A DNA stretch of 64,000 nucleotides, taken from NCBI GenBank assembly GCA_016288005.1, contig JAEEXY010000003.1:1-64000 (forward strand), given 5' to 3'. Positions 45,364-62,205 of the stretch are shown here, in pieces; positions within the stretch are counted from its first letter, which is position 1, and each line of letters starts with the position of its first letter. The stretch comes from Lachnospiraceae bacterium. GTDB lineage: Bacteria; Bacillota; Clostridia; Lachnospirales; Lachnospiraceae. The notes below the pieces were generated by a model. That model made no database searches and was not told where the DNA came from. It was given only the letters and a program-made list of their open reading frames with translations. A program made the translations under genes and the position numbers.

Positions 45364-48300
45364 TTATGTCCTGTGGATCGTCAACCGATCGCAGTATGCG
45401 AATACGCGGTCCGAAAGCGCAATGTCCCCGGGGATATACGCTTCCTCGAGATTCTCGCAGAATGCGAACGCTTCGTCCTCTATAGTTTTTACCGACGGAG
45501 GGATGACGATCTTTTTAATTGATTTGCATCTGAAGAATGCCCTTGCGGGGATCAGCTCCAGCCTGTCGGAGATATGTATCTCCTTCAGGCTCACGCAGTG
45601 CTCAAAGCACCTGGCACCGAGCTGTGTGAGCGCGTCCGACAGATCGATCTCCTCGAGCGACTGACATCCCGAAAATGCTTGCGCACCGATGCGTTCTACC
45701 GCTCCGGCGCCCGTCACGCTGCGCAGCCATTTGCTGTTCTCAAAGGCACATCTCCCGATACTTGCCGTATCCCCGGCAAGCTCGATCGTCTCCAGCAGGA
45801 GGCAGTCCTTATATACCGCGTCACCTATCGATACAATGCCTTCCGGGAACCTAAGATCCTTTATATTTCCTGTGCTCTCGATCAGGCTGCAGTCTTCGTC
45901 GAGCTTAAAGCAGTTGATGCATTCCGAGAATATCCTCCGGACGAGCTCGGGATAGTCCTTATCTTTCAGATCCGTAACCCTCTCCAGCTCATAAACACTG
46001 CCGTCCCGGTCGGTTATCCTTTTTAGGTTCAGGCAGTTGCGGAACGCCAGGTTCTCGATCGCGATCCTCTCCGACGGTATCGTAAGACCGGTGATCGCGG
46101 TATTCCCGGCAAAACACCAGGCGGCCACTCGGTTTACCGATATCGGGAGTTCCACATCCCCGGTGCAGTTTGCGCCGTCCGTCAGAACCCCGTTTACAAT
46201 GACCATATCGGACTTTGCCCTCTGCGCGGCCAGCCACCCGGTCTGCGAAAAAGCATGACTGCCGAATATCCGCACGGACTCAGGTATATCTATCTCCTCC
46301 AGGCGCGCGTGGTCACGGAAAACATCCTGACCGATCTCTTCGGTGTCCGCGGGGATCGTAACCCTGGACGCATCCCCGCTGTATCCGGCCAGCTCTGTTC
46401 CCTCGCGTATGTCAAAGCACGACCAGACAGACGCGATCACCTCGCGCACGCGGGGCGGATAGGGGTTATCGACACGGTTCAGGCTGTCCGAGAACCGTGA
46501 AAACTCATAGCTCTGCCCGTTCCATGCTATAGAACGGATCTGTGTGGAACCTGTAAAGGCACCGCTCTTTAATACCGTATCCTCACCGATCTCAACAGAT
46601 TCCAGCGACGCGCAATCCGCAAACGCGTGGTATCCGCACTCCACGGCGCCGAGCTTCACGCTCCTTAAGGCATCGCAGCGCTCGAAAGCCCTCTCGCCGA
46701 TCTGCTTGATCCCGGAGAAATCAAACGAATCGAGACTCACGCATTCGTCGAAGCATCCGGCCCCCATGCGCGTAACGCTCTTCGCCTCAAAACGGCTCAG
46801 CATATAGCAACCGGCAAAGCTCTGCGCGGGCAGTACCGAAACTCCCGAGAGTCTGATCTCTTCGAGCCGCCTGCTGTACGCGAAACAGGCTTCACCGACC
46901 TCTTTCACGTTCATCCTGACTTTTCTTAACTTCGGGCAGGCAGAGAACGCGTTCTTCCCTAACGTACATCCCGGCGCGTCTATGATGACCTCCTCGAGGT
47001 CGGGACAGGACGCAAAAGCGTATTTCCCGATACTATTTATGTCTTTGAGCTCGAGTACCTTAATCCCTGCTTTTCCCGCATATGCATACGGCTCTATGCG
47101 CTCACCGTTATCATCCCCGTCCTCAGGACCGCAGCCGTTACCGGCGTCCGCTCTTTTGCAGGGCCGCTCCGGCTGGTCAAAATTCTTAGCCAGATAAAAC
47201 GCGTACGGATGGATATAGGCATGCGCGGGCATGGAGTCGAAGGTTTTAAGCTGCAGGCAGCGCCTGAAGGCGTATTCCCCGATATAGGCGGCCGTCTCCG
47301 GCACATTGCATTTGAGGAGCTTTCTGCACTCCGCAAACGCCTCTCGCCCGATCCGCCAAAGCCCTGCGGGAAGTACGACATTCTGCAGGGTAAGGCAGCC
47401 CGCGAAGGCCTGCTCCCCGATCTCCTTAAGACCGTCCGGGCACAGCACCGTCTTTACGCGCTCGTTACCGAAAAAGCAGCGTTCTCCGATGATCTCAACC
47501 TCACCGGGAATGCGCACCTGCTCCTCACTGCCCATATAGCGGACCAGTATCCTGCCGCTGATATAGAAATCGCCGAGCACCTGGTCCCTGATCCTGCCGA
47601 CGAGCTCATCCGAAGACTCATCCTTAAGGTCATGGCTCTGTCCGCGCAGGATGACCGTTTTCAGGTTGCAGCAGCCGCGAAAGGCTTTATCGTCCAGGAT
47701 CACGTCATCATTTTGAAAAGAGACCGACTCCAGCCCCGTGCAGTTTAAGAACGCATTGGCCCTGATCGCGCGCAGCGTCGAAGGCAGCGATATGCTCACT
47801 ATGCCGCGTTTGTCAAAAAAGCAGCCTTTCCCGATCGCGGTGATCCCCTCGGGCAGGGTGATGGTTTTAAGGTTGATGCTGAATTTCGTCAGTACGCCGT
47901 CCTCGATCCTCATCGAATGGAATACGCTTTTCGCGATGGATTTGATGAGAGGCGGGTAGTCCGAATGTGAATCCATCGTTCCGATCAGATTGCCCAGCTC
48001 GTAGGTCGTGCCGGAGAGCGTGATCCTTTTCAGATTGATGCAGCCCTCGAATACCTCATCGGAGAAATTCGAATCGTCAAGATCCGCATTGAGCGCGACC
48101 TCGCTCAGGCTCATATTGTGGGAGAAGACCGCTTTCCCGAAATGCGTGGGGCCTTCCATCACCACTTTTTTCAGGCCGTCGCAGTATAAAAACGCGCAGG
48201 CCCCGACCTCCGTCATGGTCTTCGGGAATATCAGCTCCCCGAGCTTATGGCACTTATGGAAAGCGTGCTCTCCGACCGAGAGGAAACCCTCCGGAAATAC

Positions 48301-48513
48301 AAGTCTCGTTATCTGGCGGCAGCCCTTAAATGCCCCGTTTCCGACTCTTTTGAGGGTGGAGGGCAAAGTGATCTCCAGCAGCCACGACATGCCTTTAAAC
48401 ACGTCGTCCGCTATCGTATGAACGCCTTCCGGTATCCGAACCTCCGTCTCTGTCCCCGCACGGTAGGCTTTCAGCACGCCGTCTTCTATTTCAAAACGAT
48501 CATCAGTCAGCAT
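45364..48513 (-). CDS. Giant BspA-like LRR_5 protein, no signal peptide
   Basis: Dozens of LRR_5 units such as VRIPEGVHTIADDVFKGMSWLLEITLPSTLKRVGNGAFKGC. Confidence 0.93.
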   Translation of the reverse strand: MLTDDRFEIEDGVLKAYRAGTETEVRIPEGVHTIADDVFKGMSWLLEITLPSTLKRVGNGAFKGCRQITRLVFPEGFLSVGEHAFHKCHKLGELIFPKTMTEVGACAFLYCDGLKKVVMEGPTHFGKAVFSHNMSLSEVALNADLDDSNFSDEVFEGCINLKRITLSGTTYELGNLIGTMDSHSDYPPLIKSIAKSVFHSMRIEDGVLTKFSINLKTITLPEGITAIGKGCFFDKRGIVSISLPSTLRAIRANAFLNCTGLESVSFQNDDVILDDKAFRGCCNLKTVILRGQSHDLKDESSDELVGRIRDQVLGDFYISGRILVRYMGSEEQVRIPGEVEIIGERCFFGNERVKTVLCPDGLKEIGEQAFAGCLTLQNVVLPAGLWRIGREAFAECRKLLKCNVPETAAYIGEYAFRRCLQLKTFDSMPAHAYIHPYAFYLAKNFDQPERPCKRADAGNGCGPEDGDDNGERIEPYAYAGKAGIKVLELKDINSIGKYAFASCPDLEEVIIDAPGCTLGKNAFSACPKLRKVRMNVKEVGEACFAYSRRLEEIRLSGVSVLPAQSFAGCYMLSRFEAKSVTRMGAGCFDECVSLDSFDFSGIKQIGERAFERCDALRSVKLGAVECGYHAFADCASLESVEIGEDTVLKSGAFTGSTQIRSIAWNGQSYEFSRFSDSLNRVDNPYPPRVREVIASVWSCFDIREGTELAGYSGDASRVTIPADTEEIGQDVFRDHARLEEIDIPESVRIFGSHAFSQTGWLAAQRAKSDMVIVNGVLTDGANCTGDVELPISVNRVAAWCFAGNTAITGLTIPSERIAIENLAFRNCLNLKRITDRDGSVYELERVTDLKDKDYPELVRRIFSECINCFKLDEDCSLIESTGNIKDLRFPEGIVSIGDAVYKDCLLLETIELAGDTASIGRCAFENSKWLRSVTGAGAVERIGAQAFSGCQSLEEIDLSDALTQLGARCFEHCVSLKEIHISDRLELIPARAFFRCKSIKKIVIPPSVKTIEDEAFAFCENLEEAYIPGDIALSDRVFAYCDRLTIHRT

Positions 48514-49489
48514 ATTCCGTCCCCTTAAATATAGCTCCCAGCACATCGCGCAGCTCCGATACGCTGCCGCATCTGTACATATCTGCCTTGAGCTGTTTTG
48601 TTCCGGGCATCTTTTTCATAAAATACGATGCCAGCTTTTTAATGTATGTAAGCACGTAGAATTCGTCGAATATCTCCGACGAAAGCTCCAGCTGTTCGAG
48701 CAGCAGGCTGTATTTGGTGTCGCCGCACTCATGCCCTGTCAGCTCCGCAAATATCAGCGGGTTCTCAAAACCGTACCTGCCGAGCATGATGCCGTCCGCA
48801 CCGGTTTTTTCGGCCATTTTCAGGGCATCCTCCTTCGAGAATATCCCGCCGTTCGCAAACACCGGTATGCCGACAGACTCTTTTGCGAGCCTGATATACT
48901 CGTACAGCGGCTCGCCGTCATACATCATGCTCCTGGTCCTGCCGTGAACCGTGATCATGTCCGCACCCGAAGCCTCGCACATCCTGGCAAATTCCTCTAT
49001 AACTATCTTCTGTCCGTTCATGCCGAGGCGGCACTTTACCGAAACCGTCTTTCCGCTCCGCTTGCACGCCTCTATGATCTTCGCGGCTCTCGGGATATCT
49101 TCGAGCAGCGCGCTGCCTTCGCCCGCCTTTACCACGTTCGGGACCGGGCATCCCATATTGATATCGATAACGTCAAACGGCGCCAGCAGATCGCTCTTTG
49201 CAGCCCTTTCGAAAACCGTCGGGACCGATCCGAGGAGCTGCACGCATTTAACCGTCTCGCGCTCATCCGTATACAGCAGCTTTGATGTGGCGCGGTCATT
49301 GTATTTCAGCGCGTCCGCGCTCACCATCTCGGTATAGGCGCTGCCCGCGCCGAGCCTTTTCGCCATCAGCCTGAAAGGAAAACAGGTATAGCCTGCCAGC
49401 GGGGCCATCAGCACGTTTGAGGGAAACCTCGTCCGGCCGATCATTATCTCATGGACCTTAAAAGCATTCGGTCCGTTACCGTCACTCAT
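48503..49489 (-). CDS. dus: tRNA-dihydrouridine synthase
   Basis: LMAPLAGYTCFPFRLMAKRLGA...DINMGCPVPNVVKAGEGSALL...VHGRTRSMMYDG, VFANGGIFSKEDA. Confidence 0.95.
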   Translation of the reverse strand: MSDGNGPNAFKVHEIMIGRTRFPSNVLMAPLAGYTCFPFRLMAKRLGAGSAYTEMVSADALKYNDRATSKLLYTDERETVKCVQLLGSVPTVFERAAKSDLLAPFDVIDINMGCPVPNVVKAGEGSALLEDIPRAAKIIEACKRSGKTVSVKCRLGMNGQKIVIEEFARMCEASGADMITVHGRTRSMMYDGEPLYEYIRLAKESVGIPVFANGGIFSKEDALKMAEKTGADGIMLGRYGFENPLIFAELTGHECGDTKYSLLLEQLELSSEIFDEFYVLTYIKKLASYFMKKMPGTKQLKADMYRCGSVSELRDVLGAIFKGTEYAD

Positions 49490-50428: not shown

Positions 50429-51001
50429 TCAGTTCAGGCTCGCGGCTGTTTTTTTCATTACCTTCTCCGCCAGGCGTATCGCCAGGATCGCCACAGGGAT
50501 CACCAGGATCAGCGCTATGCACAGGAGCGGGACATTGTCGGTGACTGTCTGCATCTTGGCGGCATAGCCTTCGGGCATCTCCTCGACTGCCGCCGCGAGA
50601 GCGTTCTCCGTATCGGTCCACCAGTGCGCCGTGTATGCGTAGAATGAGTAAGCAAAAGGTATAAAGCTGTATCTGACGCCTTTGAGCGTATCATAGCCGC
50701 ATGCCATCCTTATGAGCTCCGCAGCCAGAGTGATAACGGCTGTTATGATGATAAACGAGACATCCGCCTCACCGGTGATCAGTCCCGCTATCAGGACGAA
50801 TCCGTTCAGGCACAGCGCCGCGCCGAAGCACCTCATGTGCGCCGCGGTATACAGATATACAAAGGCAAACAGCAGCGGAAGGATCGTTCCGATATACGCA
50901 TAGCACATCGGGTGGATCATTCCGCAGGCCGAGCCCGCAGGGTAAAGGAGCAGATATATCACTGCGCAGATTATCACTGCGCCTGCAGAAACCTTTTTCA
51001 T
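50429..51001 (-). CDS. Multi-TM membrane protein, unknown function
   Basis: Hydrophobic segments; same strand, immediately downstream of AraC gene. Confidence 0.7.
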   Translation of the reverse strand: MKKVSAGAVIICAVIYLLLYPAGSACGMIHPMCYAYIGTILPLLFAFVYLYTAAHMRCFGAALCLNGFVLIAGLITGEADVSFIIITAVITLAAELIRMACGYDTLKGVRYSFIPFAYSFYAYTAHWWTDTENALAAAVEEMPEGYAAKMQTVTDNVPLLCIALILVIPVAILAIRLAEKVMKKTAASLN

Positions 51002-51020: not shown

Positions 51021-51995
51021 TCAGATATTTTTGTTTTTCCATTCTTTGGGCGTCATCCCAAAGCTTTTTTTGAACGCCGCCGAAAACTTGCTGGCGTTCA
51101 AATAGCCGCAGATCCCCGCGATCTCCGTTATCGAGAGGCTGTTGCCCAGCAGCAGGTTCTTTGATTCCTGCATGCGGACCTGCGTCCTGTATTCAAATAC
51201 CGTCACTCCGTACATCTGCTTGAACAGCTTCTGCAGCGTTGTGCGGTTCAGTTTGACTCTTTCCGACAGTTCTTCGATCGAGATGTCAGAAGCTATGTTT
51301 TCACCGAGTATCTTGCGGGCCATATGCACCTTATTGTAGGAGTCCCCGCTGAAATACCTGTATTCGGCGCTTTTTCCGCCTTTTACGTTCAAAAGCGCCA
51401 GTATCGCGCGGAGCGTCAGCAGTTTTCTGTGACACTCACCGTATTCCTCGGGAAGCAGGACCAGCTCCGTAAAAATAGTCTTCAGCATCTCATTTGCCGC
51501 GAAGCAGATGCACGAATCCGCCTTGGTGGCATATTCGAAGAGCGGCTTATCGTCAAATTCCTTAGTCCCGAAAAAGCGGTTCAGCTCGTCCTTTAACGTG
51601 TCCAGCAGCAAAACTATGCTGATGCAGCGTATACCGGCTTTCCCGAAAATAATCTTTTTGGCGTCCACACGGTCGTTGAATATGCAGACATCGCCTTTAT
51701 CGGCGGAGGCCACACGCCTGTTTTCCATTTCAAAATCGGCATGTCCCTCCACCATATACATGATCTCTATATAGTCAAATGACTCGGGTCTTTCCCTTAC
51801 AATGGGGTAATATGACTCCAGCTCCGAATACACCAGCTCGATGCCGGGAGCGATCCCGTAATTATGCATGATGCCCTCGCCCGCGCTGTCTTTTAAGCGG
51901 TAGGTCTTTTCAGACTCCTTATCGCACATGATATACATGTACTTCTTAAAGATCTCCTCTGCATCTAATTTTGTGTTATCGGATCCGTTGTTCAT
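51021..51995 (-). CDS. AraC-family transcriptional regulator
   Basis: C-terminal LSITEIAGICGYLNASKFSAAFKKSFGMTPKEWKNK. Confidence 0.93.
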   Translation of the reverse strand: MNNGSDNTKLDAEEIFKKYMYIMCDKESEKTYRLKDSAGEGIMHNYGIAPGIELVYSELESYYPIVRERPESFDYIEIMYMVEGHADFEMENRRVASADKGDVCIFNDRVDAKKIIFGKAGIRCISIVLLLDTLKDELNRFFGTKEFDDKPLFEYATKADSCICFAANEMLKTIFTELVLLPEEYGECHRKLLTLRAILALLNVKGGKSAEYRYFSGDSYNKVHMARKILGENIASDISIEELSERVKLNRTTLQKLFKQMYGVTVFEYRTQVRMQESKNLLLGNSLSITEIAGICGYLNASKFSAAFKKSFGMTPKEWKNKNI

Positions 51996-52012: not shown

Positions 52013-53383
52013 TCAGGCAATCGCCGGCCTTTCTTCACTTCTTATGCTCTTAAACGCAGCCGCCATGAGCGCAACGGCCAGTACAAGAACGACCGCGTCG
52101 GTGATGAGCTGCGCATAGAATACGCCTGCCACGCTGTTGGTGAATACATAAGGCAGTATCAGGACAAGGGGCAGGAAGAGCAGTATCTGTCTCAAAACCG
52201 TAAGTATAGCCGCATTGCCGCCTTTGCCTATCGCCTGGAAGAACGTGATCGAGAGGATCAGCACGCCGTACGTGATGTAGGACGCGAACAGCACTCTGAG
52301 CATCGGCGCTCCCATTTCGACGATGGAGGCATCGGTTATGAACATGGACAGCATGGTTCTGGGCGCGATCATGATCGGAATATAGAATACCGACGCAAGG
52401 AGCGTGGCCGCTATCATAAACGCTTTGTTGAAGGAACGCACACGGCCGTATTCCTTTGCCCCGTAGTTGGTTCCGATCGCAGGCTGGTATCCCTGGCTTA
52501 TGCCCCACAGAGGGATAAACGAGAACGCCTGAAGGCTGAGCGCGGCGCCGAGTATCGTCTGCCACTCACCGCCGCCGCAGCGCTCAACGGTATTGTACAT
52601 AACAGTCTGCTGAAGCATGGTCATTACCTGCATGAGCATCGCGGAGACTCCGACGCTGAACACGGACTTCGATACGGAACCTATGACACCTATCCTGTTT
52701 ATTTTAACCGTGTCGCTCTTTTTTGTAAAATATACGATCGCGAGAACGGCCTGGAATACCTGTGCCGTTACCGTTGCCGCCGCGGCTCCGAGGATACCGT
52801 TTTCTTTTCCGAATAACAGGATGAATAAGGGGTCGAGTATAATATTCAGGATCGCTCCCGAACCCATGATGAGCATGGCGGTCTTAAGCTTGCCTTCGCC
52901 GCGCATTACCATGTTCGACGACTGCGCGAAATTAACGAAGAGCGATCCGCAGAACACCAGCTTTAAATATCTGTTTGCCTCAACAAGTATCTCTCCCTTC
53001 GCTCCCGAAAGAGACAGCAGGGGCTTTGTGAATATCAGCCCGATGGCGGTGATGATCAGTGACAGGATCAAAACCCACGCGATCAGGTTGCCCATGATCT
53101 TGTCAACGGTCTGACGGTCCTTTTTACCGATGGCCCTTGAAAGCACGGATGCCGAACCGGTTCCGATCAGAGTCGATATTCCGCTGTTGAGCAGCGTAAA
53201 AGGATAAGAAACCTTGACCGCCGTCATTGCCTCGGGTCCTACCATCCTCCCCACAAAAACGGCATCCATAAAGTTGTACAGTCCGATAACGACCATTCCC
53301 AGGATCGCCGGAATACTTAGTGAAAGCATTGTTTTGACAATGTTTCCGCTTACGAGATTATCCCTTGCATTAGTATTGCTCAT
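52013..53383 (-). CDS. MATE-family efflux transporter
   Basis: MLSLSIPAILGMVVIGLYNFMDAVFVGRMVGPEAMTAVKVSYPF; start set at MSNTNARDN. Confidence 0.95.
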   Translation of the reverse strand: MSNTNARDNLVSGNIVKTMLSLSIPAILGMVVIGLYNFMDAVFVGRMVGPEAMTAVKVSYPFTLLNSGISTLIGTGSASVLSRAIGKKDRQTVDKIMGNLIAWVLILSLIITAIGLIFTKPLLSLSGAKGEILVEANRYLKLVFCGSLFVNFAQSSNMVMRGEGKLKTAMLIMGSGAILNIILDPLFILLFGKENGILGAAAATVTAQVFQAVLAIVYFTKKSDTVKINRIGVIGSVSKSVFSVGVSAMLMQVMTMLQQTVMYNTVERCGGGEWQTILGAALSLQAFSFIPLWGISQGYQPAIGTNYGAKEYGRVRSFNKAFMIAATLLASVFYIPIMIAPRTMLSMFITDASIVEMGAPMLRVLFASYITYGVLILSITFFQAIGKGGNAAILTVLRQILLFLPLVLILPYVFTNSVAGVFYAQLITDAVVLVLAVALMAAAFKSIRSEERPAIA

Positions 53384-53407: not shown

Positions 53408-53423
53408 GTTAGCATATGCTAAC
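53408..53423. promoter_or_regulatory. Candidate TetR-type operator upstream of MATE operon
   Basis: GTTAGCATATGCTAAC perfect palindrome. Confidence 0.7.
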
Positions 53424-53504
53424 CGGTGGTGAGTATATGGCAACCGCCCGTCAAAAACCACTCCAAAAAGCAATCAGCACTCCGATCAGCAATTATTTTT
53501 CCGC

Positions 53505-53558
53505 TTGACAATTGCCGGTTAGCATTGTATAACTGTTTCTTGGTTAGCGCAAGCTAAC
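53505..53558 (+). promoter_or_regulatory. Promoter TTGACA-N17-TATAAC with operator-like sites in the spacer and downstream
   Basis: TTGACA 53505-53510, TATAAC 53528-53533; GTTAGCATTGTATAAC 53518-53533 and GTTAGCGCAAGCTAAC 53543-53558. Confidence 0.75.
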
Positions 53559-53582
53559 TTAAATTCCTAAGGAGGGTGGTTT

Positions 53583-54965
53583 ATGAGATCATTTTTTAAC
53601 AAGGCAGCCGCTCTGTTCCTGGCACTGGTACTTTGCCTGGGCATTGCCGGTCCTGCCGCAACACAGGTAAGGGCAGAGGAGTCCGTAACAGCTGCACAGG
53701 AGGGCAAGGATTTCCTTAAAAACGTTATCGGAGAATACGTTCCCCTGTTTGAAGGCGCTTCTTTTGAAGCAAAGTACGATCACTACTGGCACGATTATTC
53801 CGCAGCTGTAGCGGGCGAATCCATGGCCGATATGTGCGTTGCCATGATGAAGCAGGCCATAGGCGCATCGACCTACGGCAAGGACGCAGGTGAGGAGTTC
53901 TTCTGCGGATTTACCGCGGATGTGGTAAAGATCGCGTTCGGCGGCGAAGACGGAACCGACGTTACCTATACTCTTAAGAACGGCAAGACCGTCAAGCATT
54001 CCTATGTCTATGTAAAGGACGCTGCAGCAACGGGCGAGGCCGAAGGCCAGGAGATGGTCATGAACGGCTATCTGTACAAGAGCGCCGACGGCAACAAGGA
54101 TGAGTTCACTTATCTCTATATGTGCCCCGATACTCCCGATACCACATATCATCTCGAGTTCAGATATGGCAGCGACGAAAAGAATATCTTAAAGCTGACC
54201 GACGGCAAATATAAGAACTGGCTCGCGGCGGGCTTTACCGCTTCGGCTCTCGACGATCCTAAGGAAGAGCTGATCAGCCGTGTTATCGGCCTCTTCGTTT
54301 ACGAGAATCTCGAAGCGATGAGCGGTGACGAGTGTGCCGCCCAGAGAGCCTCCATAGCAGGCACCTGGGATATGGACACCACCGCGTTCAAGGATTATCC
54401 CGGATATGAGAACGCATCGATGTATATCGAGCTCTCGGCCACAGGCACAGGCAAGTCCTACGTTGACATGACCGGCAGCGGCGCCTACATGCTCGCGAGC
54501 GAGTATCCTTTCTATACTTACGATACCAAGGATGCTTCCGGCACCGAAAAGGGTGTTTATCTGGTCGTAAGCGGTGACGAGGGATTAAAGACAGCCACCT
54601 ACGAGATTTCCGAAAAGGACGGCGTAAAGACGCTTCTCTTCAACTCATCCGAAGGCGTTATCACCTACTACGGCCGCAATGCAGTCATCGCAGCTCCCGA
54701 GATCACAAAGACAAAGGTAAAGAAGTCGAAGACCCTTACCGTAGCCTGGAAGGCTGTTGAGAACGCTGACGGCTATGAAGTAACCTACTCCACGAGCAAG
54801 AAGTTCAAGAAGGCCAAGACCGTATCCGTATCAAAGGCTTCCGCAAAGATAAAGAACCTCAAAAAGAAGAACTATTACGTAAAGGTCCGCGGATATGTGC
54901 TCGATCCTCTCGGAAACAAGGTTTACGGCGAATACTCACAGACATCGGTGATCAAGAACAAATAA
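53583..54965 (+). CDS. Secreted protein with C-terminal FnIII-like domain
   Basis: Signal peptide MRSFFNKAAALFLALVLCLGIAGPAATQVRA; C-terminal TVAWKAVENADGYEVTYSTSKKFKKAKTV...YYVKVRGYV. Confidence 0.85.
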   Translation: MRSFFNKAAALFLALVLCLGIAGPAATQVRAEESVTAAQEGKDFLKNVIGEYVPLFEGASFEAKYDHYWHDYSAAVAGESMADMCVAMMKQAIGASTYGKDAGEEFFCGFTADVVKIAFGGEDGTDVTYTLKNGKTVKHSYVYVKDAAATGEAEGQEMVMNGYLYKSADGNKDEFTYLYMCPDTPDTTYHLEFRYGSDEKNILKLTDGKYKNWLAAGFTASALDDPKEELISRVIGLFVYENLEAMSGDECAAQRASIAGTWDMDTTAFKDYPGYENASMYIELSATGTGKSYVDMTGSGAYMLASEYPFYTYDTKDASGTEKGVYLVVSGDEGLKTATYEISEKDGVKTLLFNSSEGVITYYGRNAVIAAPEITKTKVKKSKTLTVAWKAVENADGYEVTYSTSKKFKKAKTVSVSKASAKIKNLKKKNYYVKVRGYVLDPLGNKVYGEYSQTSVIKNK

Positions 54966-55001
54966 GATCGTCAGACCGATCATACCTGATTCTCCCTATA
55001 C

Positions 55002-55036
55002 AAAGAGACCGCCCCGAAACTCAGGGCGGTCTCTTT
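55002..55036. terminator. Bidirectional terminator-like hairpin
   Basis: AAAGAGACCGCCC-cgaaactca-GGGCGGTCTCTTT. Confidence 0.8.
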
Positions 55037-55069
55037 ATGTCATTATCCCAGGAAAGGAAGTGCCGTATT

Positions 55070-57151
55070 TTATGTTTCCGGCAGCAGCTTCGTCATGCTC
55101 TTCAGACCCAGTACCACGGTAGAGCCGTTGTGCAGCGCCGCGGACGTTGCGGGCGGCAGTATGCCGATTATCCCGAGTCCGATGAGCGCTGTATTAAACC
55201 CGACTATCGTGCGGTAGTTGAAGCGTATGCGCTTCATCAGCAATGTACTGATCTCGCGCAGGGTCACGATGCTCTCAAGGTCCGACGAGCTGATCGTGAT
55301 ATCCGCTATCTGTCTGGCTATCTCCGCGCCGTCACTGATCGCTATGCCGGCGTCAGCCGCGGAAAGCGCAGGTGAATCGTTTATGCCGTCGCCGACCATG
55401 ATCACATGCCTGCCCTCCGACTTTGCCTTTTCAACGTACCTGGCTTTATCTTCGGGAAGGACCTCTGCGTAAAACTCATCGATCCCGGCCTCGGAGGCGA
55501 TCTTTTTAGCGGTCCTCTCACTGTCTCCGGTCATCATTACAATGTGCTCAAAGCCCTGTTCGCGGAGCTTTTCAACTACGCTTCCCACCTCTTCGCGCAT
55601 CGGATCCTCTATGAGGATGCAGGCCGAGAGCATGCCGTTCTTTGCGAAATACAGATGCGAGTACTCATCGGGCAGGGAATCGAACATCTGCCTTTTATCC
55701 TCGGGGATGTGTACTCCTTCGTCCTCAAAAACAAAGTGATAGCTTCCGATCACGGCTTTTTCGTTATTGATCTCCGACGCTATGCCGTGGGCTACGATAT
55801 ATTCGACATTCGTGTGAAGTTCTTCATGCAGGAGCCCCTTATCCTCGGCCGCCCTGACTACGGCCCTGGCCACCGAATGAGGAAAATGCTCTTCGAGACA
55901 GGCCGCCTGACGGAGCAGCTCGTCTTCCGGTTCGCCGTCAAACGATACCACTCTGACGACCGTGGGCTGTGCCTTGGTAAGCGTTCCCGTTTTGTCGAAA
56001 ACTATCGTATCGGCATCGGCCACCGCCTCAAGGAACCTGCCTCCCTTGACGGTTATGTCGTACTCGGAAGCCTCCTTGATAGCGGAGAGCACCGATATGG
56101 GCATCGCCATTTTCAGCGCACAGGAATAATCAACCATCAGCACCGATACAGCCTTGGTGATATTGCGGCTGATCGCCCAGGTAAGGCCGGATGCCAGCAG
56201 TGTGTAGGGAACCAGTCTGTCGGCCAGTCTCTCGGCCTTGCTCTCAAGTGAGGATTTGAGTTTTTCCGACTCCTCGATCATCTTTACGATCTTGTCAAAA
56301 CGTCCGCAGCCCCCGGTCTGGGTAACCCTGACCGTGAGCTCTCCTTCCTCGGCAACGGTCCCTGCAAACACACTCATGCCCACTCCCTTATGCACCGCGA
56401 CAGACTCTCCCGTCATCGAAGCCTGGTTGACCATAGCCTCACCGGATACCACCTCGCCGTCAAACGGGATCATGTTTCCCATCCGCACGATGACCCGGTC
56501 GCCGCAGCGTACCTCTGACGAATCGGCCTGAACCTCGCCGTCGTCGGTAAGAAGCCAGACTTTATCGATATTGAGCGACATGCGTCTTGCCAGATCGTCC
56601 ACGGAGCGTTTATGCGTCCATTCCTCGAGGATATCTCCGATCTTCAGCAGGAACATGACTGAAGACGCGGTATTGTAATCCCCGGTAAGGACCGCTGCCG
56701 TGATCGCGGCGGCATCGAGCATCTCCACTTGCAGTTTTCTGTTTTTGAGAGTTTTAAGCCCGCGCCATACGTACTTTACGGTCTTTGCGATGACCCACAG
56801 CCTGCGCAGGTCGAAGGGAATGATAAGCCGTTTTCCGTAATGCAGGAGCACGGAAGTCACGAGCCGGTCGTAATACTGCGCCGAGAGCTCTCTTCCCGAG
56901 CACTCGAATACCTTTTCGGGGACCTGCACCGTATCAAAGGAAAAGCCTTTTACGATCTCGATCGCCCGCTCCCTGTCACAGTCAAAAACGATCACGGCAT
57001 CGGCGGTTCTCTCGTAGACCTTTGTTTCCCTGATCTCGGGGAAAGTGCCCAGATAATACTCGAACGTGTCCGCCTCCCTGAAACTCATGCGCTTCATGGG
57101 CAGATGCAGCCTGATCCTGTTCTTTATCTCATGTTTGATCGTGAATCTCAT
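55070..57151 (-). CDS. P1B-type heavy-metal P-type ATPase with non-canonical SCALKMAMP TM motif
   Basis: DKTGTLTKAQP; MVGDGINDSPALSAADAGIAI; TGESVAVHKG; YSCALKMAMPISVLSAI. Confidence 0.93.
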   Translation of the reverse strand: MRFTIKHEIKNRIRLHLPMKRMSFREADTFEYYLGTFPEIRETKVYERTADAVIVFDCDRERAIEIVKGFSFDTVQVPEKVFECSGRELSAQYYDRLVTSVLLHYGKRLIIPFDLRRLWVIAKTVKYVWRGLKTLKNRKLQVEMLDAAAITAAVLTGDYNTASSVMFLLKIGDILEEWTHKRSVDDLARRMSLNIDKVWLLTDDGEVQADSSEVRCGDRVIVRMGNMIPFDGEVVSGEAMVNQASMTGESVAVHKGVGMSVFAGTVAEEGELTVRVTQTGGCGRFDKIVKMIEESEKLKSSLESKAERLADRLVPYTLLASGLTWAISRNITKAVSVLMVDYSCALKMAMPISVLSAIKEASEYDITVKGGRFLEAVADADTIVFDKTGTLTKAQPTVVRVVSFDGEPEDELLRQAACLEEHFPHSVARAVVRAAEDKGLLHEELHTNVEYIVAHGIASEINNEKAVIGSYHFVFEDEGVHIPEDKRQMFDSLPDEYSHLYFAKNGMLSACILIEDPMREEVGSVVEKLREQGFEHIVMMTGDSERTAKKIASEAGIDEFYAEVLPEDKARYVEKAKSEGRHVIMVGDGINDSPALSAADAGIAISDGAEIARQIADITISSSDLESIVTLREISTLLMKRIRFNYRTIVGFNTALIGLGIIGILPPATSAALHNGSTVVLGLKSMTKLLPET

Positions 57152-57393
57152 TCTTCAACGACTTCCTTTTTCGCTCTTTCCTCGTTGATGGACTTGGCCT
57201 CGGCATAGATGTCGGAGCAGTTCTCCTGGAGGGTCGTCACCTGCGTAACGAGACAGTCCTTTGCCCTCAATACGCCTGCCGTGCAGTGCGCATAAACCTT
57301 CTTCGCGTCCTTTGAGGACAACAGTTTGATACCTTCGAGCCCAAACAGTGTGCCCAGCGCAAATAATCCGATTCCCTTAAGTTTCATGATCAT
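57148..57393 (-). CDS. Small DUF6110-like protein with N-terminal hydrophobic segment
   Basis: KLKGIGLFALGTLFGLEGIKLLSSKDAKKVYAHCTAGVLRAKDCL; overlaps P-type ATPase start by 4 nt. Confidence 0.75.
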   Translation of the reverse strand: MIMKLKGIGLFALGTLFGLEGIKLLSSKDAKKVYAHCTAGVLRAKDCLVTQVTTLQENCSDIYAEAKSINEERAKKEVVEE

Positions 57394-57399
57394 ACCTCC

Positions 57400-57648
57400 T
57401 TAAAATCCAAAGAATCTCTTTTTGTATGGTTCGGTGCTCACTGAGAGCACAGTATACCCGGTCTCGTCTATCGCGGCCTTAAGCGCCGCTTCATCGGGTG
57501 CCGCATCGGTCACAAAACTGCTCTCGCCTTTGGTGTGTGAGCTCTTAACCTTCGCCGCATCCGGTACCGCTTTTCTGATCGCGTCGTTGACATGTGCCTC
57601 GCACATACCGCACATCATGCCGTCGATCTTCAGTGTTGTCTTGATCAT
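57400..57648 (-). CDS. Heavy-metal-associated (HMA) domain protein
   Basis: TLKIDGMMCGMCEAHVNDAIRKA CxxC metal-binding motif. Confidence 0.9.
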   Translation of the reverse strand: MIKTTLKIDGMMCGMCEAHVNDAIRKAVPDAAKVKSSHTKGESSFVTDAAPDEAALKAAIDETGYTVLSVSTEPYKKRFFGF

Positions 57649-57682
57649 AGCTTCGCCTTTCTGTGTAAAACCGCGGAATCGT

Positions 57683-57735
57683 GTTAGATTCCGCTAACCG
57701 AATACATTATATATACGTTTGATACTTTTTTACAA
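57683..57735 (-). promoter_or_regulatory. Promoter TTGTAA-N18-TATAAT with downstream operator-like palindrome
   Basis: Minus strand: TTGTAA (57730-57735), TATAAT (57706-57711), GTTAGCGGAATCTAAC (57683-57698). Confidence 0.7.
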
Positions 57736-57874
57736 GTGTTTTCTTGATATTTTCAACACTTTGCACTATATTGGCGCATGTTTTATTTCGCACGAAACGG
57801 GCAGAGATTCCTCTGCCCGTTATCACTTACTAACTTTTCCTGCCTCTTTTTATTCTCCTTTGATAATTCTTTTT

Positions 57875-59617
57875 TCACATCTTCCAGTTCTGCGAGATCA
57901 GCTGCTGTTTTGTCATCCTGCTGTATATGCTGTCATATCCCGACAGGAATTCGGGACTTCCCTGCTCCGCGACCACGCCGTCCTTTAAGACTACGATATG
58001 GTCCGCGTTTGCGATGGTCCTCATGCGGTGCGCGATGATCATGACTGTCTTGTTTTTGATCAGTCTCGAGAGTGCCTCCTGGATGGCTGTCTCATTCTCA
58101 GCGTCGAGCGAAGCGGTCGCCTCATCGAGGAGTATCACGGGCGCGTCCTTTAAGAATGCCCTCGCGATCGATATCCTCTGCCTCTCGCCGCCCGAGAGCT
58201 CGCTGCCGTTCTCACCGATATAAGTGTTGTATTTCTCGGGGAGCAGGTTTACGAACTCCTCACAGTTGGCGAGCCTTGCGGCCTCCATTACCTCTGCGTC
58301 GGTAGCGCCCTGCTTTCCGATGCGGATGTTTTCCATGACAGAATTGTTAAAGAGGGTTACATCCTGGAAAACGATCGAGTATTTCGTCAGCAGTGTCTCG
58401 GGGTCTATCTTTGAGATATCCGTGGCGCCGAGCGTGATGCGGCCGCTGTTAACATCCCAGAACCTTGCCGCGAGTCTCGATATAGTGGTCTTTCCGCCGC
58501 CGGACGGCCCGATCAGCGCCGTTACTTCACCCTGTTTTGCGGTAAAGCTGACATCCTTCAGCACATCCGTATCATCCGCGTATTTGAAGCCCACATGGTC
58601 GAATACGATGTCGTATCCGTTGTTGTTCAGTTCTTCAGAACCGGTCTGGATCTCGTGCGAGAGCATCTCATCCAGCCTCTCGCACTGTATGCCCGTGGAA
58701 ATGATCGCGGCAAAGTTCTGGAGCGATATCTCCATGGGGCTGTACAGGCGCGCGGCGAGCATCAGGAACATAAAGAATGTCAGCAGGTCGATCTCGCCTT
58801 TCGCGAAAAGCGCGCCGCCCGCAACGGCTGTCGTTCCGATGCCGAGCTTCAGCACGATCGCCGCGGAATTAACGTAGACCGCCATTTTAAGCTCTGTGAA
58901 CAGAGCGAATTTTTCAACCTTTTTGATCTTGACGTCGAGTTCTTCCATGTATCTGCCCTCGGCGTTGTTGGCACGCAGGTCCCTGATCGATTCAAGGCAT
59001 TCCTGGATGCCGTCGGCCATGTCCAGTTTGATCGCCTGGTTTTTGCGGGTAGCTCTCTTTTCAGCGCCCGAGCAGCTGATCACGATGATAAAAGCAACGG
59101 GGATTACCCAGAAACTGGCCAGCACCATTCTCCAGTCGAAGAAGAAAAACATGCTGACACCGACGAGGCAAACCGAAATCACCGCACCGATCAGCTCAGG
59201 GATCCAGTGGCTCGAAGCCGTCTCGATCATCGCGCAGTCACCCATCAGGTTCGTGGTCAGATCGGCCAGATTCTTTTTGCCGAAATACGAAAGAGGCAGT
59301 TTTCTGAGCTTCTCCGCGATCATCGTGCGGCGCACTCCGCTCTCGCGGTATGTGGCGAAAAAGGTCGAATTGTACTGGATATAATTGGTTATGAAAATAA
59401 GGGCCATTATGATCACCGACCCGATCGCGTAGAACGGTATCCTGTCTTTCCCGAGGTTTCCTTCGAGCAGGTCCTTTATCAGCGTATACAGGATCCCCGC
59501 GGTCATCATCAGGACGATGTTTGTGACCGTAACGCTCACGCAGGCCTTGATCATATCCTTCGCGCCCTGTCTCGAGAGCGCGTATTTATGCTGTAATCTC
59601 TCTATCATCTCAGGCAC
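57875..59617 (-). CDS. ABC transporter, fused permease/ATPase
   Basis: LIGPSGGGKTTISRLAARFWD; LSGGERQRISIARAFLKDAPVILLDEATASLD. Confidence 0.95.
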   Translation of the reverse strand: MPEMIERLQHKYALSRQGAKDMIKACVSVTVTNIVLMMTAGILYTLIKDLLEGNLGKDRIPFYAIGSVIIMALIFITNYIQYNSTFFATYRESGVRRTMIAEKLRKLPLSYFGKKNLADLTTNLMGDCAMIETASSHWIPELIGAVISVCLVGVSMFFFFDWRMVLASFWVIPVAFIIVISCSGAEKRATRKNQAIKLDMADGIQECLESIRDLRANNAEGRYMEELDVKIKKVEKFALFTELKMAVYVNSAAIVLKLGIGTTAVAGGALFAKGEIDLLTFFMFLMLAARLYSPMEISLQNFAAIISTGIQCERLDEMLSHEIQTGSEELNNNGYDIVFDHVGFKYADDTDVLKDVSFTAKQGEVTALIGPSGGGKTTISRLAARFWDVNSGRITLGATDISKIDPETLLTKYSIVFQDVTLFNNSVMENIRIGKQGATDAEVMEAARLANCEEFVNLLPEKYNTYIGENGSELSGGERQRISIARAFLKDAPVILLDEATASLDAENETAIQEALSRLIKNKTVMIIAHRMRTIANADHIVVLKDGVVAEQGSPEFLSGYDSIYSRMTKQQLISQNWKM

Positions 59618-61394
59618 CTACCTTCCATTCGATCGATCTGGTATACTCATCGAACATCCGCTTATACAGACCGTCCCGCTTCATCAGTTCATCATGTGTT
59701 CCGGATTCGGTGCATTTTCCGTCATCCATCACAAATATCCTGTCGGCGTTCATTACGGTGCTGAGCCTGTGCGCGATCATGATAAGGGTCTTATCCTTCG
59801 AAAGCTCCTCAAATGCCGCCTGCACCTTTGTCTCGTTGTCGGGATCCGCAAACGCGGTCGCTTCGTCGAGGATAAGGATCGGGGCATCCTTTAACACAGC
59901 CCTCGCGATCGTGATCCTCTGCTGTTCGCCGCCGGAGAGATAGGTCCCTTTCTCCCCGATCACGGTATGTATGCCGTCCGGCAGTTTTTCGATGATATCC
60001 ATGCACTGCGCTTTTTTCAGGGCGTCGAGCACCTCAGCCTCGGACGCGTCCGGTCTGCTCATGCGCACATTGTCGAGGATCGATTTCTTGATCAGCCTGC
60101 TGTCCTGGAACACGAAAGAAACCTGCTTCATCAGCTCCGATGACGGCATGTCCTTAACATTTACGCCGCCTATGAGTATCTCACCCTTTGTCACGTCAAA
60201 GAACCTTACGATCAGCTCCGCAAGAGTGGTCTTTCCCGAACCCGACGGGCCGACGAACGCCACATGCTCACCTGGCCTGATGCTGAGGGTCACATTGCTT
60301 ACCGCGTCGCGCGCGGCGTCCTTATACCTGTAGGAAACATCCTTCAGCACGATACCGCAGTCCGCCGGAGTTTTCTTTGAGGTGCCCTCGGACAGGGGCT
60401 CGATCTCCATGATCTTATCTGCGCGCTTCAGCGCATCTATAAGGTTCATCTCCGCTTCGCCCGAATACGCGATCTTGGTCAGCGCGATGGTAACGAGAGG
60501 CATAATGATGATGTAATACATAACGTTCAGGATATCCGCGTTCTCTATGCCGTTCTTCGTAACGACATACGCAGCGATCACTATGAACGCGAATATCGCG
60601 TTGATAAAGGTCATAAAGAATGCCATCGGGACTCTCAGCATCAGCGTATACTGCGTTGCCCAGCTGCAGTAGCCGCTGATGCAGTCCTTGAACCGTTTGA
60701 AGGAATGTACAGTCTGGCCGAACGTTTTTACTACCGGGACGCCCCTTACGTATTCGGTCGCCTCGCTGCTCATGGTCTCGAGCGCGTCCTGGTACTCCTT
60801 CATCTTTGCCTGCATGTCCTTACCCATCATCTTCATCATGCACGCAAATCCGATGATGGCCGGTATAACGCAGATAAGACCGATCTTCCAGTTAAACCCG
60901 AATACCAGAACGATCAGGCCTATCGGAGTGACCGTCGCAACGGTCTTGTCGGCCAGGCTGTGCGCTATATAAGTCTCGGTAGCGGCCGTCGAATCGTTTA
61001 CGATACGTCTGATCTTTCCCGTTCCGTCCTCGTCAAAAACGCCGAGCGGCAGTGTAAGTATCCTGCGCATCAGCGAGCTGCGCATGCTGGCCTGCACACG
61101 GAATGCCGCGATATGCGTGCATAAGAGCGCCGCGATGTAAACGAGCAGCGCGCCGATGATCAGCCCGACCGCCAGCAGTGCATGTCCCTTGATCGTATCC
61201 GGATCTTCGCCGTTTACCGCGATCCTGATGATCTTCCATAACTCATAGTACGGGATCAGCGTCAGCACGGCGCTCACGGCCGCCAGACACCTCCCGAGAG
61301 TGATCAGGTACTTATGGTTTCCCGCGTATTCCCTGATCAGTTTCATGTGGTCATACTTTTCTGTCTTTCCCACTTTCTGTTCCTCCCTTTGCAT
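59610..61394 (-). CDS. ABC transporter, fused permease/ATPase
   Basis: FVGPSGSGKTTLAELIVRFFD; LSGGEQQRITIARAVLKDAPILILDEATAFAD; overlaps downstream ABC gene. Confidence 0.95.
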   Translation of the reverse strand: MQREEQKVGKTEKYDHMKLIREYAGNHKYLITLGRCLAAVSAVLTLIPYYELWKIIRIAVNGEDPDTIKGHALLAVGLIIGALLVYIAALLCTHIAAFRVQASMRSSLMRRILTLPLGVFDEDGTGKIRRIVNDSTAATETYIAHSLADKTVATVTPIGLIVLVFGFNWKIGLICVIPAIIGFACMMKMMGKDMQAKMKEYQDALETMSSEATEYVRGVPVVKTFGQTVHSFKRFKDCISGYCSWATQYTLMLRVPMAFFMTFINAIFAFIVIAAYVVTKNGIENADILNVMYYIIIMPLVTIALTKIAYSGEAEMNLIDALKRADKIMEIEPLSEGTSKKTPADCGIVLKDVSYRYKDAARDAVSNVTLSIRPGEHVAFVGPSGSGKTTLAELIVRFFDVTKGEILIGGVNVKDMPSSELMKQVSFVFQDSRLIKKSILDNVRMSRPDASEAEVLDALKKAQCMDIIEKLPDGIHTVIGEKGTYLSGGEQQRITIARAVLKDAPILILDEATAFADPDNETKVQAAFEELSKDKTLIMIAHRLSTVMNADRIFVMDDGKCTESGTHDELMKRDGLYKRMFDEYTRSIEWKVGA

Positions 61395-61453
61395 TTTGAT
61401 CTATATAAAACACCCGGCAGCCGCAGCATGACGGTTATCGATGTGTCATTTCG

Positions 61454-61469
61454 GTTAGCTATCGCTAAC
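61454..61469. promoter_or_regulatory. Candidate TetR-type operator upstream of dual ABC exporter operon
   Basis: GTTAGC-TATC-GCTAAC. Confidence 0.7.
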
Positions 61470-61492
61470 TCAAGAGCGATAACTTAAACAAT

Positions 61493-61514
61493 AAAAAAGA
61501 GCCTTTCGGCTCTT
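61493..61514 (-). terminator. Terminator of TetR gene
   Basis: Minus: AAGAGCC-GAAA-GGCTCTT-TTTTA. Confidence 0.8.
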
Positions 61515-61516
61515 CT

Positions 61517-62134
61517 CTATCTGATACCCATTATCCTCAGCCATCCCGGCATAAAGAACTCCTGGACCGTATTCAGAAAACTGTCTATCTTATCATTGTC
61601 AAAATCGTGTATGATGGGCTCAAAGCACGCGGTCAGGTACGCTGAAAGCAGCATGTGCAGTTCCTCCTCACTGATATCGATCACCGGATATCCCTTATCC
61701 TTCAGAAATCTGATGGCCTCCAGAAACTCTCTCTGGTTGCTCTCTACATAGTCGTGGACGAAGTTCTCGTATTTGGTCCCCCGTGAGCGTGTCATCAGGA
61801 GGATGAACTCATCCCTTCGCGGAAGTATGACTTCCCTGATCAGGTCTATGAAAGTTTCCCCGAAGAGCTCTTCCTTCGGCGTCCCGCTGTCCAAAAGATC
61901 GTACTTCCTGCCGGTATGCCTGTCCGTCCACGCCTTAATGCTCTCGACCAGCGGTTCGACCATGGCGTTGAACATGGCTTCCTTGTCGTCATAATGCCTG
62001 TAAAGGCCGGCCGAAGTCATACCCGCACGCGCCCCGATGCTCCTGATGGAAGCATCCTCATAGCCTTTTTCAAGGAACTCGTCGCGGATAGCTTTTTTAA
62101 CCTTTTCATGACTGAGTGTTTTATCTCTGGGCAT
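61517..62134 (-). CDS. TetR/AcrR-family transcriptional regulator
   Basis: MPRDKTLSHEKVKKAIRDEFLEKGYEDASIRSIGARAGMTSAGLYRHYDDKEAMFNAM. Confidence 0.94.
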   Translation of the reverse strand: MPRDKTLSHEKVKKAIRDEFLEKGYEDASIRSIGARAGMTSAGLYRHYDDKEAMFNAMVEPLVESIKAWTDRHTGRKYDLLDSGTPKEELFGETFIDLIREVILPRRDEFILLMTRSRGTKYENFVHDYVESNQREFLEAIRFLKDKGYPVIDISEEELHMLLSAYLTACFEPIIHDFDNDKIDSFLNTVQEFFMPGWLRIMGIR

Positions 62135-62155
62135 AACGGCAACTCCGAAAAATAA

Positions 62156-62205
62156 GTTATCACTGTTCGCTATCAAAGATTACTATAATTTCTTTTTCCT
62201 GTCAA
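62156..62205 (-). promoter_or_regulatory. Promoter of TetR gene with operator-like inverted repeat
   Basis: Minus: TTGACA (62200-62205)-N17-TAATCT (62177-62182), then GATAGC-GAACAGT-GATAAC (62156-62174). Confidence 0.6.

Follow-up and report, generated by a model that had tools for sequence, protein, structure and literature searches.

A shared palindrome at four promoters of a Lachnospiraceae contig predicts a DtxR-type iron regulon, with a TetR-family protein as a probable local regulator of one ABC transporter pair

We analyzed a 64,000-nucleotide stretch of the Lachnospiraceae bacterium assembly GCA_016288005.1 (contig JAEEXY010000003.1, positions 1 to 64,000 of the forward strand), referred to below as the window. 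An earlier note on this DNA had described a GTTAGC-N4-GCTAAC palindrome in four promoter regions, and had proposed that the product of the adjacent tetR gene was the common repressor of the four operons, viewed as an efflux and envelope regulon. The genes and features concerned are as follows.

50429..51001, - strand: Trep_Strep membrane protein (PF09605)
51021..51995, - strand: AraC-family regulator
52013..53383, - strand: MATE transporter, the first gene behind box 1
53408..53423: predicted DtxR-type box 1, GTTAGCATATGCTAAC, 25 bp upstream of the start codon (ATG 53383) of the MATE-AraC-Trep_Strep operon
53518..53533: degenerate box, GTTAGCATTGTATAAC, with 2 mismatches, upstream of the secreted-protein gene and overlapping the TTGACA-N17-TATAAC promoter at its -10
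53543..53558: predicted DtxR-type box 2, GTTAGCGCAAGCTAAC, 24 bp upstream of the start codon (ATG 53583) of the secreted-protein gene
53583..54965, + strand: secreted protein with a fibronectin-III-like C-terminus
55070..57151, - strand: P1B-type metal ATPase of the DUF6110-linked P1B6 kind, with HN in the last TM region
57148..57393, - strand: DUF6110 protein
57400..57648, - strand: HMA-domain metallochaperone-like protein
57683..57698: predicted DtxR-type box 3, GTTAGCGGAATCTAAC on the - strand, closely following a TTGTAA-N18-TATAAT promoter and preceding the HMA-DUF6110-P1B6 ATPase genes
57875..59617, - strand: ABC exporter-fold half-transporter B (ABC-B)
59610..61394, - strand: ABC exporter-fold half-transporter A (ABC-A), with IrtA and YbtP as best bacterial PDB matches
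61454..61469: predicted DtxR-type box 4, GTTAGCGATAGCTAAC on the - strand, between tetR and the ABC pair, holding the TetR-type element CGATAGCTAAC
61490..61521, - strand: intrinsic terminator of tetR, by which this gene is set apart from the ABC pair
61517..62131, - strand: TetR-family regulator, proposed to act locally on its own gene and the ABC pair
62156..62174, - strand: TetR-type element GATAGCGAACAGTGATAAC, just after the -10 of tetR and kept in orthologs, a probable autoregulatory operator

The secreted protein had no Pfam or NCBIfam match. Near the boxed operons, positions 45364-48546 encode a long, repeat-rich protein that is leucine-rich-repeat-like and, by eye, BspA-type.

A motif scan of the window recovered every copy of the palindrome that had been reported: 3 exact (boxes 1, 2 and 4), one with a single mismatch (box 3) and one with 2 mismatches (53518-53533). 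At up to 2 mismatches the window contains 7 matches compared to 1.61 expected, and none of 100 shuffles reached 7. The genome scan that the earlier note had suggested as a check gave 15 sites in the 3.30-Mb genome of this rumen bacterium (8 exact and 7 with one mismatch), while the reversed control pattern gave 0 at the same limit. The core, GTTAG-N6-CTAAC, likewise occurred at 15 sites compared to 0 for the control, and these are distributed over 4 contigs (8 on C32, 1 on C49, 2 on C73 and 4 on the window contig). According to the ORF tables all 15 core sites lie upstream of genes, ~120 bp or less from the likely start codon. A site near amidase genes (G000:C135:4968), in which the GTTAG/CTAAC core is broken, was set aside as a probable chance occurrence. 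Within the window the boxes precede the MATE operon, the secreted-protein gene, the HMA-DUF6110-P-ATPase genes and the ABC pair. Box 1 would fall within an ORF only if translation began at a TTG at 53473; the ATG at 53383 is preceded by a ribosome-site-like GGGAG. The TTGACA-N17-TATAAC promoter is a by-eye reading, and its TATAAC fails the T that the promoter tool requires at position 6. For the ABC pair, the promoter scan revealed no clear sigma-70 promoter upstream. Taken together, these findings support the view that the boxes are non-random, operator-like palindromes at promoters and that, as the earlier note had proposed, they define one regulon that would include all 4 window operons. 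The MATE operon and the secreted-protein gene are predicted members by virtue of their boxes alone.

The 11 core sites outside the window are found at feoA-feoA-feoB, 2 dtxR genes, a second ABC pair, and genes for a ZIP transporter, a DUF2325 protein, a methyltransferase and DUF3793-flavodoxin/citrate synthase. On C32, 3 boxes are located in the region that separates a DtxR-family gene from the divergently oriented feoA-feoA-feoB genes, and another lies between feoA2 and feoB; further boxes precede the second DtxR-family gene, the second ABC pair, the DUF2325 gene and the ZIP gene. One box precedes the methyltransferase gene on C49, and 2 lie between DUF3793-flavodoxin and citrate synthase on C73. 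The palindrome is therefore present at several iron-homeostasis promoters as well as at the promoter of the regulator itself. Judged by gene families, the content of the boxed promoters is that of an iron regulon, without any TetR like that of the window. A methyltransferase gene that follows a box and adjoins the P1B6 ATPase or DUF3793 gene is a recurring feature (L270, L301, G000:C49:13129-13752). The 2 regulator genes, both outside the window, are:

G000:C32:13529-13930: DtxR1, the proposed box-binding protein, divergent from feoA-feoA-feoB
G000:C32:17438-17827 (L016:7439-7828): the second paralog, DtxR2, with its own box upstream

Both regulators belong to the DtxR family by Pfam (PF01325 and PF02742), and their PDB matches are DtxR, IdeR and MntR. 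For DtxR1 the winged-helix domain (Fe_dep_repress, PF01325) scored 6e-12 and the metal/dimer domain (Fe_dep_repr_C, PF02742) 1.3e-14. Residues Met10, Cys102, Glu105 and His106 are the iron-type primary ligands that distinguish DtxR from the manganese-type MntR, and all 4 positions are retained in DtxR1 when aligned with Corynebacterium diphtheriae DtxR. With respect to ancillary ligands, the same alignment revealed that His79 is retained while Glu83 and His98 are replaced. DtxR1 is only 133 aa long and lacks the C-terminal SH3 domain; because it is short, lacks SH3 and has Glu83 and His98 replaced, it is not a member of the classical DtxR/IdeR subfamily. In DtxR2, Asp replaces Met10 while position 102 is Cys, which mixes iron and manganese ligand types. 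The sole FUR-family gene of the assembly (G000:C90:13976-14392; L334:1477-1893) is probably a Zur, since a ZnuC-like ATPase gene adjoins it. This context implies that the assembly has no iron Fur, and we rejected an iron Fur as the box-binding protein.

We found exact boxes in 51 of 150 genomes of the family. In other genera they precede feoA, feoB, dtxR, ZIP, DUF3793, flavodoxin and DUF2325 genes as well as ABC pairs, and in other families of the class they occur at feo, dtxR, DUF3793-flavodoxin and ABC-pair loci. Each genome has 1-2 DtxR paralogs. After locating the regulators of 90 genomes by tblastn, we typed them by the residue aligned to DtxR Gln43, a DNA-contacting residue. The core was found near dtxR in 12/18 genomes of the Arg type and 23/67 of the Val/Ile type, compared to 0 and a mean of 0.28 (maximum 2), respectively, for 29 permuted half-sites. 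When palindromes were searched for without supervision in Arg-type dtxR loci, GTTAG-N6-CTAAC ranked first (9/11 loci). The base next to GTTAG is mostly C in Arg-type genomes, while T is favored in the Val/Ile types. At least 2 exact boxes were present in 13/18 Arg-type genomes compared to 7/72 others (Fisher 2.6e-7), a value that is not independent of kinship and that we rejected as independent evidence because the tree indicates no more than one or two origins of Arg at this position. One genome with a Val-type DtxR (G086; L102-L112) carries 12 exact boxes, nearly all of them inside ORFs.

The TetR protein appears to have an element of its own. The earlier note had pointed to a looser element in the tetR promoter; it is indeed present at 62156-62174, but its motif differs from the palindrome. 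At up to one mismatch, the TetR element GATAGCNAAC matched the window only twice, in the tetR promoter and inside the ABC box, and GATAGCTAAC-like elements were confined to 61454 and 62165 under the same limit. The window scan found no GATAGC element in the boxes at 53408, 53543 or 57683, so that, of the 4 boxed promoters, that of the ABC pair alone carries the TetR-type element. In orthologs, the -10 of tetR is immediately followed by a shared TGATAGC(T/N)A(A/T)C-type sequence. As a further check the note had proposed looking for the motif beside orthologous tetR genes: a box with up to 2 mismatches was kept in the tetR-ABC gap of 42/52 relatives, while in one clade the left half is missing there. 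The spacer of the box is GATA in 39 of these 42, compared to GATA or TATC in 2/61 other boxes. With its spacer mostly GATA, whereas spacers are free elsewhere, the ABC box also holds a GATAGCTAAC element. In the exceptional clade (Saccharofermentans/Oscillospiraceae), the gap retains TGATAGCTAAC but has lost the left half of the box, and a separate box with a different, free spacer lies in the tetR promoter.

Of the 150 genomes, 4 others have close TetR orthologs (74% or more) and 16 have homologs (E<1e-25); among named genomes, orthologs were found in ~50 rumen Lachnospiraceae/Butyrivibrio records and a few of Saccharofermentans/Oscillospiraceae. A role for TetR at the ABC promoter is likely, since a box with up to 2 mismatches is present at 16/21 loci of TetR homologs. 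These findings suggest that TetR probably binds at the ABC promoter alone among the 4, over the iron box, and that in addition to DtxR it probably controls its own gene and the ABC pair. Copies of the TetR-ABC module with 62-66% identity were also seen beyond Lachnospiraceae, and in these the iron box is in the tetR promoter (L254/L255 in G234, Oscillospiraceae SIG422; L308, L310, L311, L323, L327). Horizontal transfer accompanied by operator rewiring is one possible origin of these copies.

The gene families behind the boxes make the efflux reading doubtful. The window ABC genes encode tandem exporter-fold half-transporters whose closest bacterial proteins are those of IrtAB/YbtPQ, the PDB comparison covering ABC-A. 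For ABC-A the siderophore importers IrtA and YbtP scored E values of about 1e-95 and 1e-93, ahead of MsbA, although full-length eukaryotic ABCB exporters score equal or higher overall. The PDB matches of the second ABC pair, on C32, behave like those of the window ABC-A. At L278, L279, L293 and L315-L317 we also saw exporter-fold ABC genes in tandem pairs, and every pair has a box of its own and a TetR or AraC gene nearby. The arrangement suggests a general layout in which each importer has one ligand regulator and an iron box. The P-type ATPase is of the DUF6110-linked P1B6 kind, which is found beside iron genes: orthologs occur in 58/150 genomes, where they adjoin DUF6110 and often feoAB, dtxR, DUF3793, flavodoxin or ZIP genes, and the core box is present at 12/29 P1B6 loci compared to 0.10 for permuted controls. 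We therefore predict, from gene content and boxes, a function in nutrient-metal homeostasis, the metal probably being iron, rather than in efflux or drug resistance.

The palindrome is very likely the operator, or iron box, of a Feo-linked metalloregulator of the DtxR/IdeR type encoded outside the window, which would tie the 4 window operons into a predicted low-iron response, with TetR as a second, local regulator of tetR and the ABC pair. When Fe(II) is plentiful inside the cell, a metal-loaded DtxR dimer would occupy GTTAGY-N4-RCTAAC over or just after the -10 and block transcription; when iron is scarce, the boxes would be vacated and the regulon induced. The induced set would comprise FeoAB for Fe(II) uptake, ZIP, the HMA-DUF6110-P1B6 ATPase module, DUF3793 together with flavodoxin, and 2 exporter-fold ABC pairs that are similar to the siderophore importers IrtAB/YbtPQ; the window MATE-AraC genes and the secreted protein would be among its accessory members. 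TetR would act on GATAGCNAAC-type elements in 2 places, the tetR promoter and the ABC box, and would thereby place the ABC pair under double control, by low iron via DtxR and presumably by a ligand via TetR. The sites, their non-randomness and placement, the gene families and the co-occurrence across genomes are observed; from them we infer that DtxR binds, that it represses, that its metal is iron and that TetR has a ligand.

That the adjacent TetR represses all 4 operons, as originally proposed, is highly improbable. Although tetR adjoins one box, boxes with up to 2 mismatches accompany 16/21 of its homologs, and the ABC box holds the GATAGCTAAC element found in tetR promoters too, exact boxes occur in 51 of 150 genomes compared to 4 with close orthologs and 16 with homologs. 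Most sites of the genome are far from tetR, beside feoAB, the 2 DtxR-type repressors, ZIP and flavodoxin genes, and in many genera the same box is concentrated at feo and dtxR loci without a TetR of the window type. The clade that keeps TGATAGCTAAC in the tetR-ABC gap without the left half of the box, with its free-spacer box in the tetR promoter, likewise separates the 2 elements. We rejected TetR as common repressor for 3 of the 4 promoters, at which its own element, present only at the tetR and ABC promoters, is missing.

A regulon of the same DtxR type that senses manganese, as MntR does, instead of iron is unlikely. The best-scoring NCBIfam models for both regulators are MntR, albeit below cut-off, both proteins are short and lack the C-terminal SH3 domain, and ZIP is among the regulon members. 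Against this, the remaining content (FeoAB, flavodoxin, siderophore-importer-like ABC pairs) is iron-like, and DtxR1 aligns Met and Cys with the Asp and Glu of MntR. It is scarcely credible that the boxes arose by chance or represent a structural element, for instance a terminator or an RNA hairpin: they are palindromic, and G086 has its 12 exact copies mostly in ORFs, but the controls gave 0 genome-wide, the 29 permuted half-sites gave almost none, the spacer is free except at tetR-ABC, and the terminator at 61490-61521 differs in sequence.

The preferred reading, an iron box bound by a Feo-linked DtxR, can be extended, if only tentatively, to a class-wide clostridial iron regulon. Such a regulon might be run by short Feo-linked DtxR proteins whose residue at the Gln43 position (Arg or Val/Ile) sets the inner operator base (GTTAGC or GTTAGT), with paired siderophore-importer-like ABC transporters gated by overlapping iron (DtxR) and ligand (TetR or AraC) operators, and with the DUF6110-P1B6 module perhaps serving as a ferrosome-type iron store. 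Iron control in anaerobic Lachnospiraceae of the rumen and gut has been little described, and no paper on this operator turned up in the library searched, although this does not prove that none exists. The box offers an easily scanned regulon marker that gives the DUF6110-P1B6 ATPase, DUF3793, DUF2325, the paired exporter-fold ABCs and MATE-AraC an iron context, and the correspondence between one regulator residue and one operator base is a testable link.

P1B6 ATPases include FezB of ferrosomes, and IrtAB is a classic IdeR target. The regulon predicted here resembles the DtxR/IdeR regulons of Actinobacteria (Corynebacterium, Mycobacterium) in repressor family, in iron-type primary ligands and in its iron-uptake and siderophore-import-type content. 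The half-site GTTAG/CTAAC is common to our box and the DtxR consensus TTAGGTTAGCCTAACCTAA, but the half-sites are 6 bp apart here and 1 bp apart there. The regulator here is short, lacks SH3 and is divergent from feoAB, and the regulon additionally includes the P1B6 ATPase, flavodoxin-DUF3793, ZIP and paired ABCs accompanied by local TetR/AraC regulators. Like YbtPQ/IrtAB, the ABC proteins are exporter-fold heteromeric pairs, here within a predicted iron-type regulon and with a likeness drawn from sequence. The Fur regulon of Clostridioides difficile is similar in that Feo, flavodoxin and a P1B6-type ATPase module are induced at low iron, as is predicted here, whereas our box is of the DtxR type and the sole FUR-family gene looks like Zur. 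In C. difficile the ferrosome genes fezAB are Fur-repressed (PMC12574912); what is seen at our locus is a P1B-type ATPase with an HN motif and a DUF6110 neighbor. DUF6110 has been linked with P1B6 ATPases in relation to PacL-CtpC metal-efflux platforms (PMC9374683), and here, too, a DUF6110 gene directly precedes a P1B6-like ATPase gene with an HN motif. Mycobacterial PacL1-CtpC, by contrast, has a zinc-efflux role and a CPC motif, while our module is predicted to be under an iron box. The kind of regulon is known, and the variant is apparently new.
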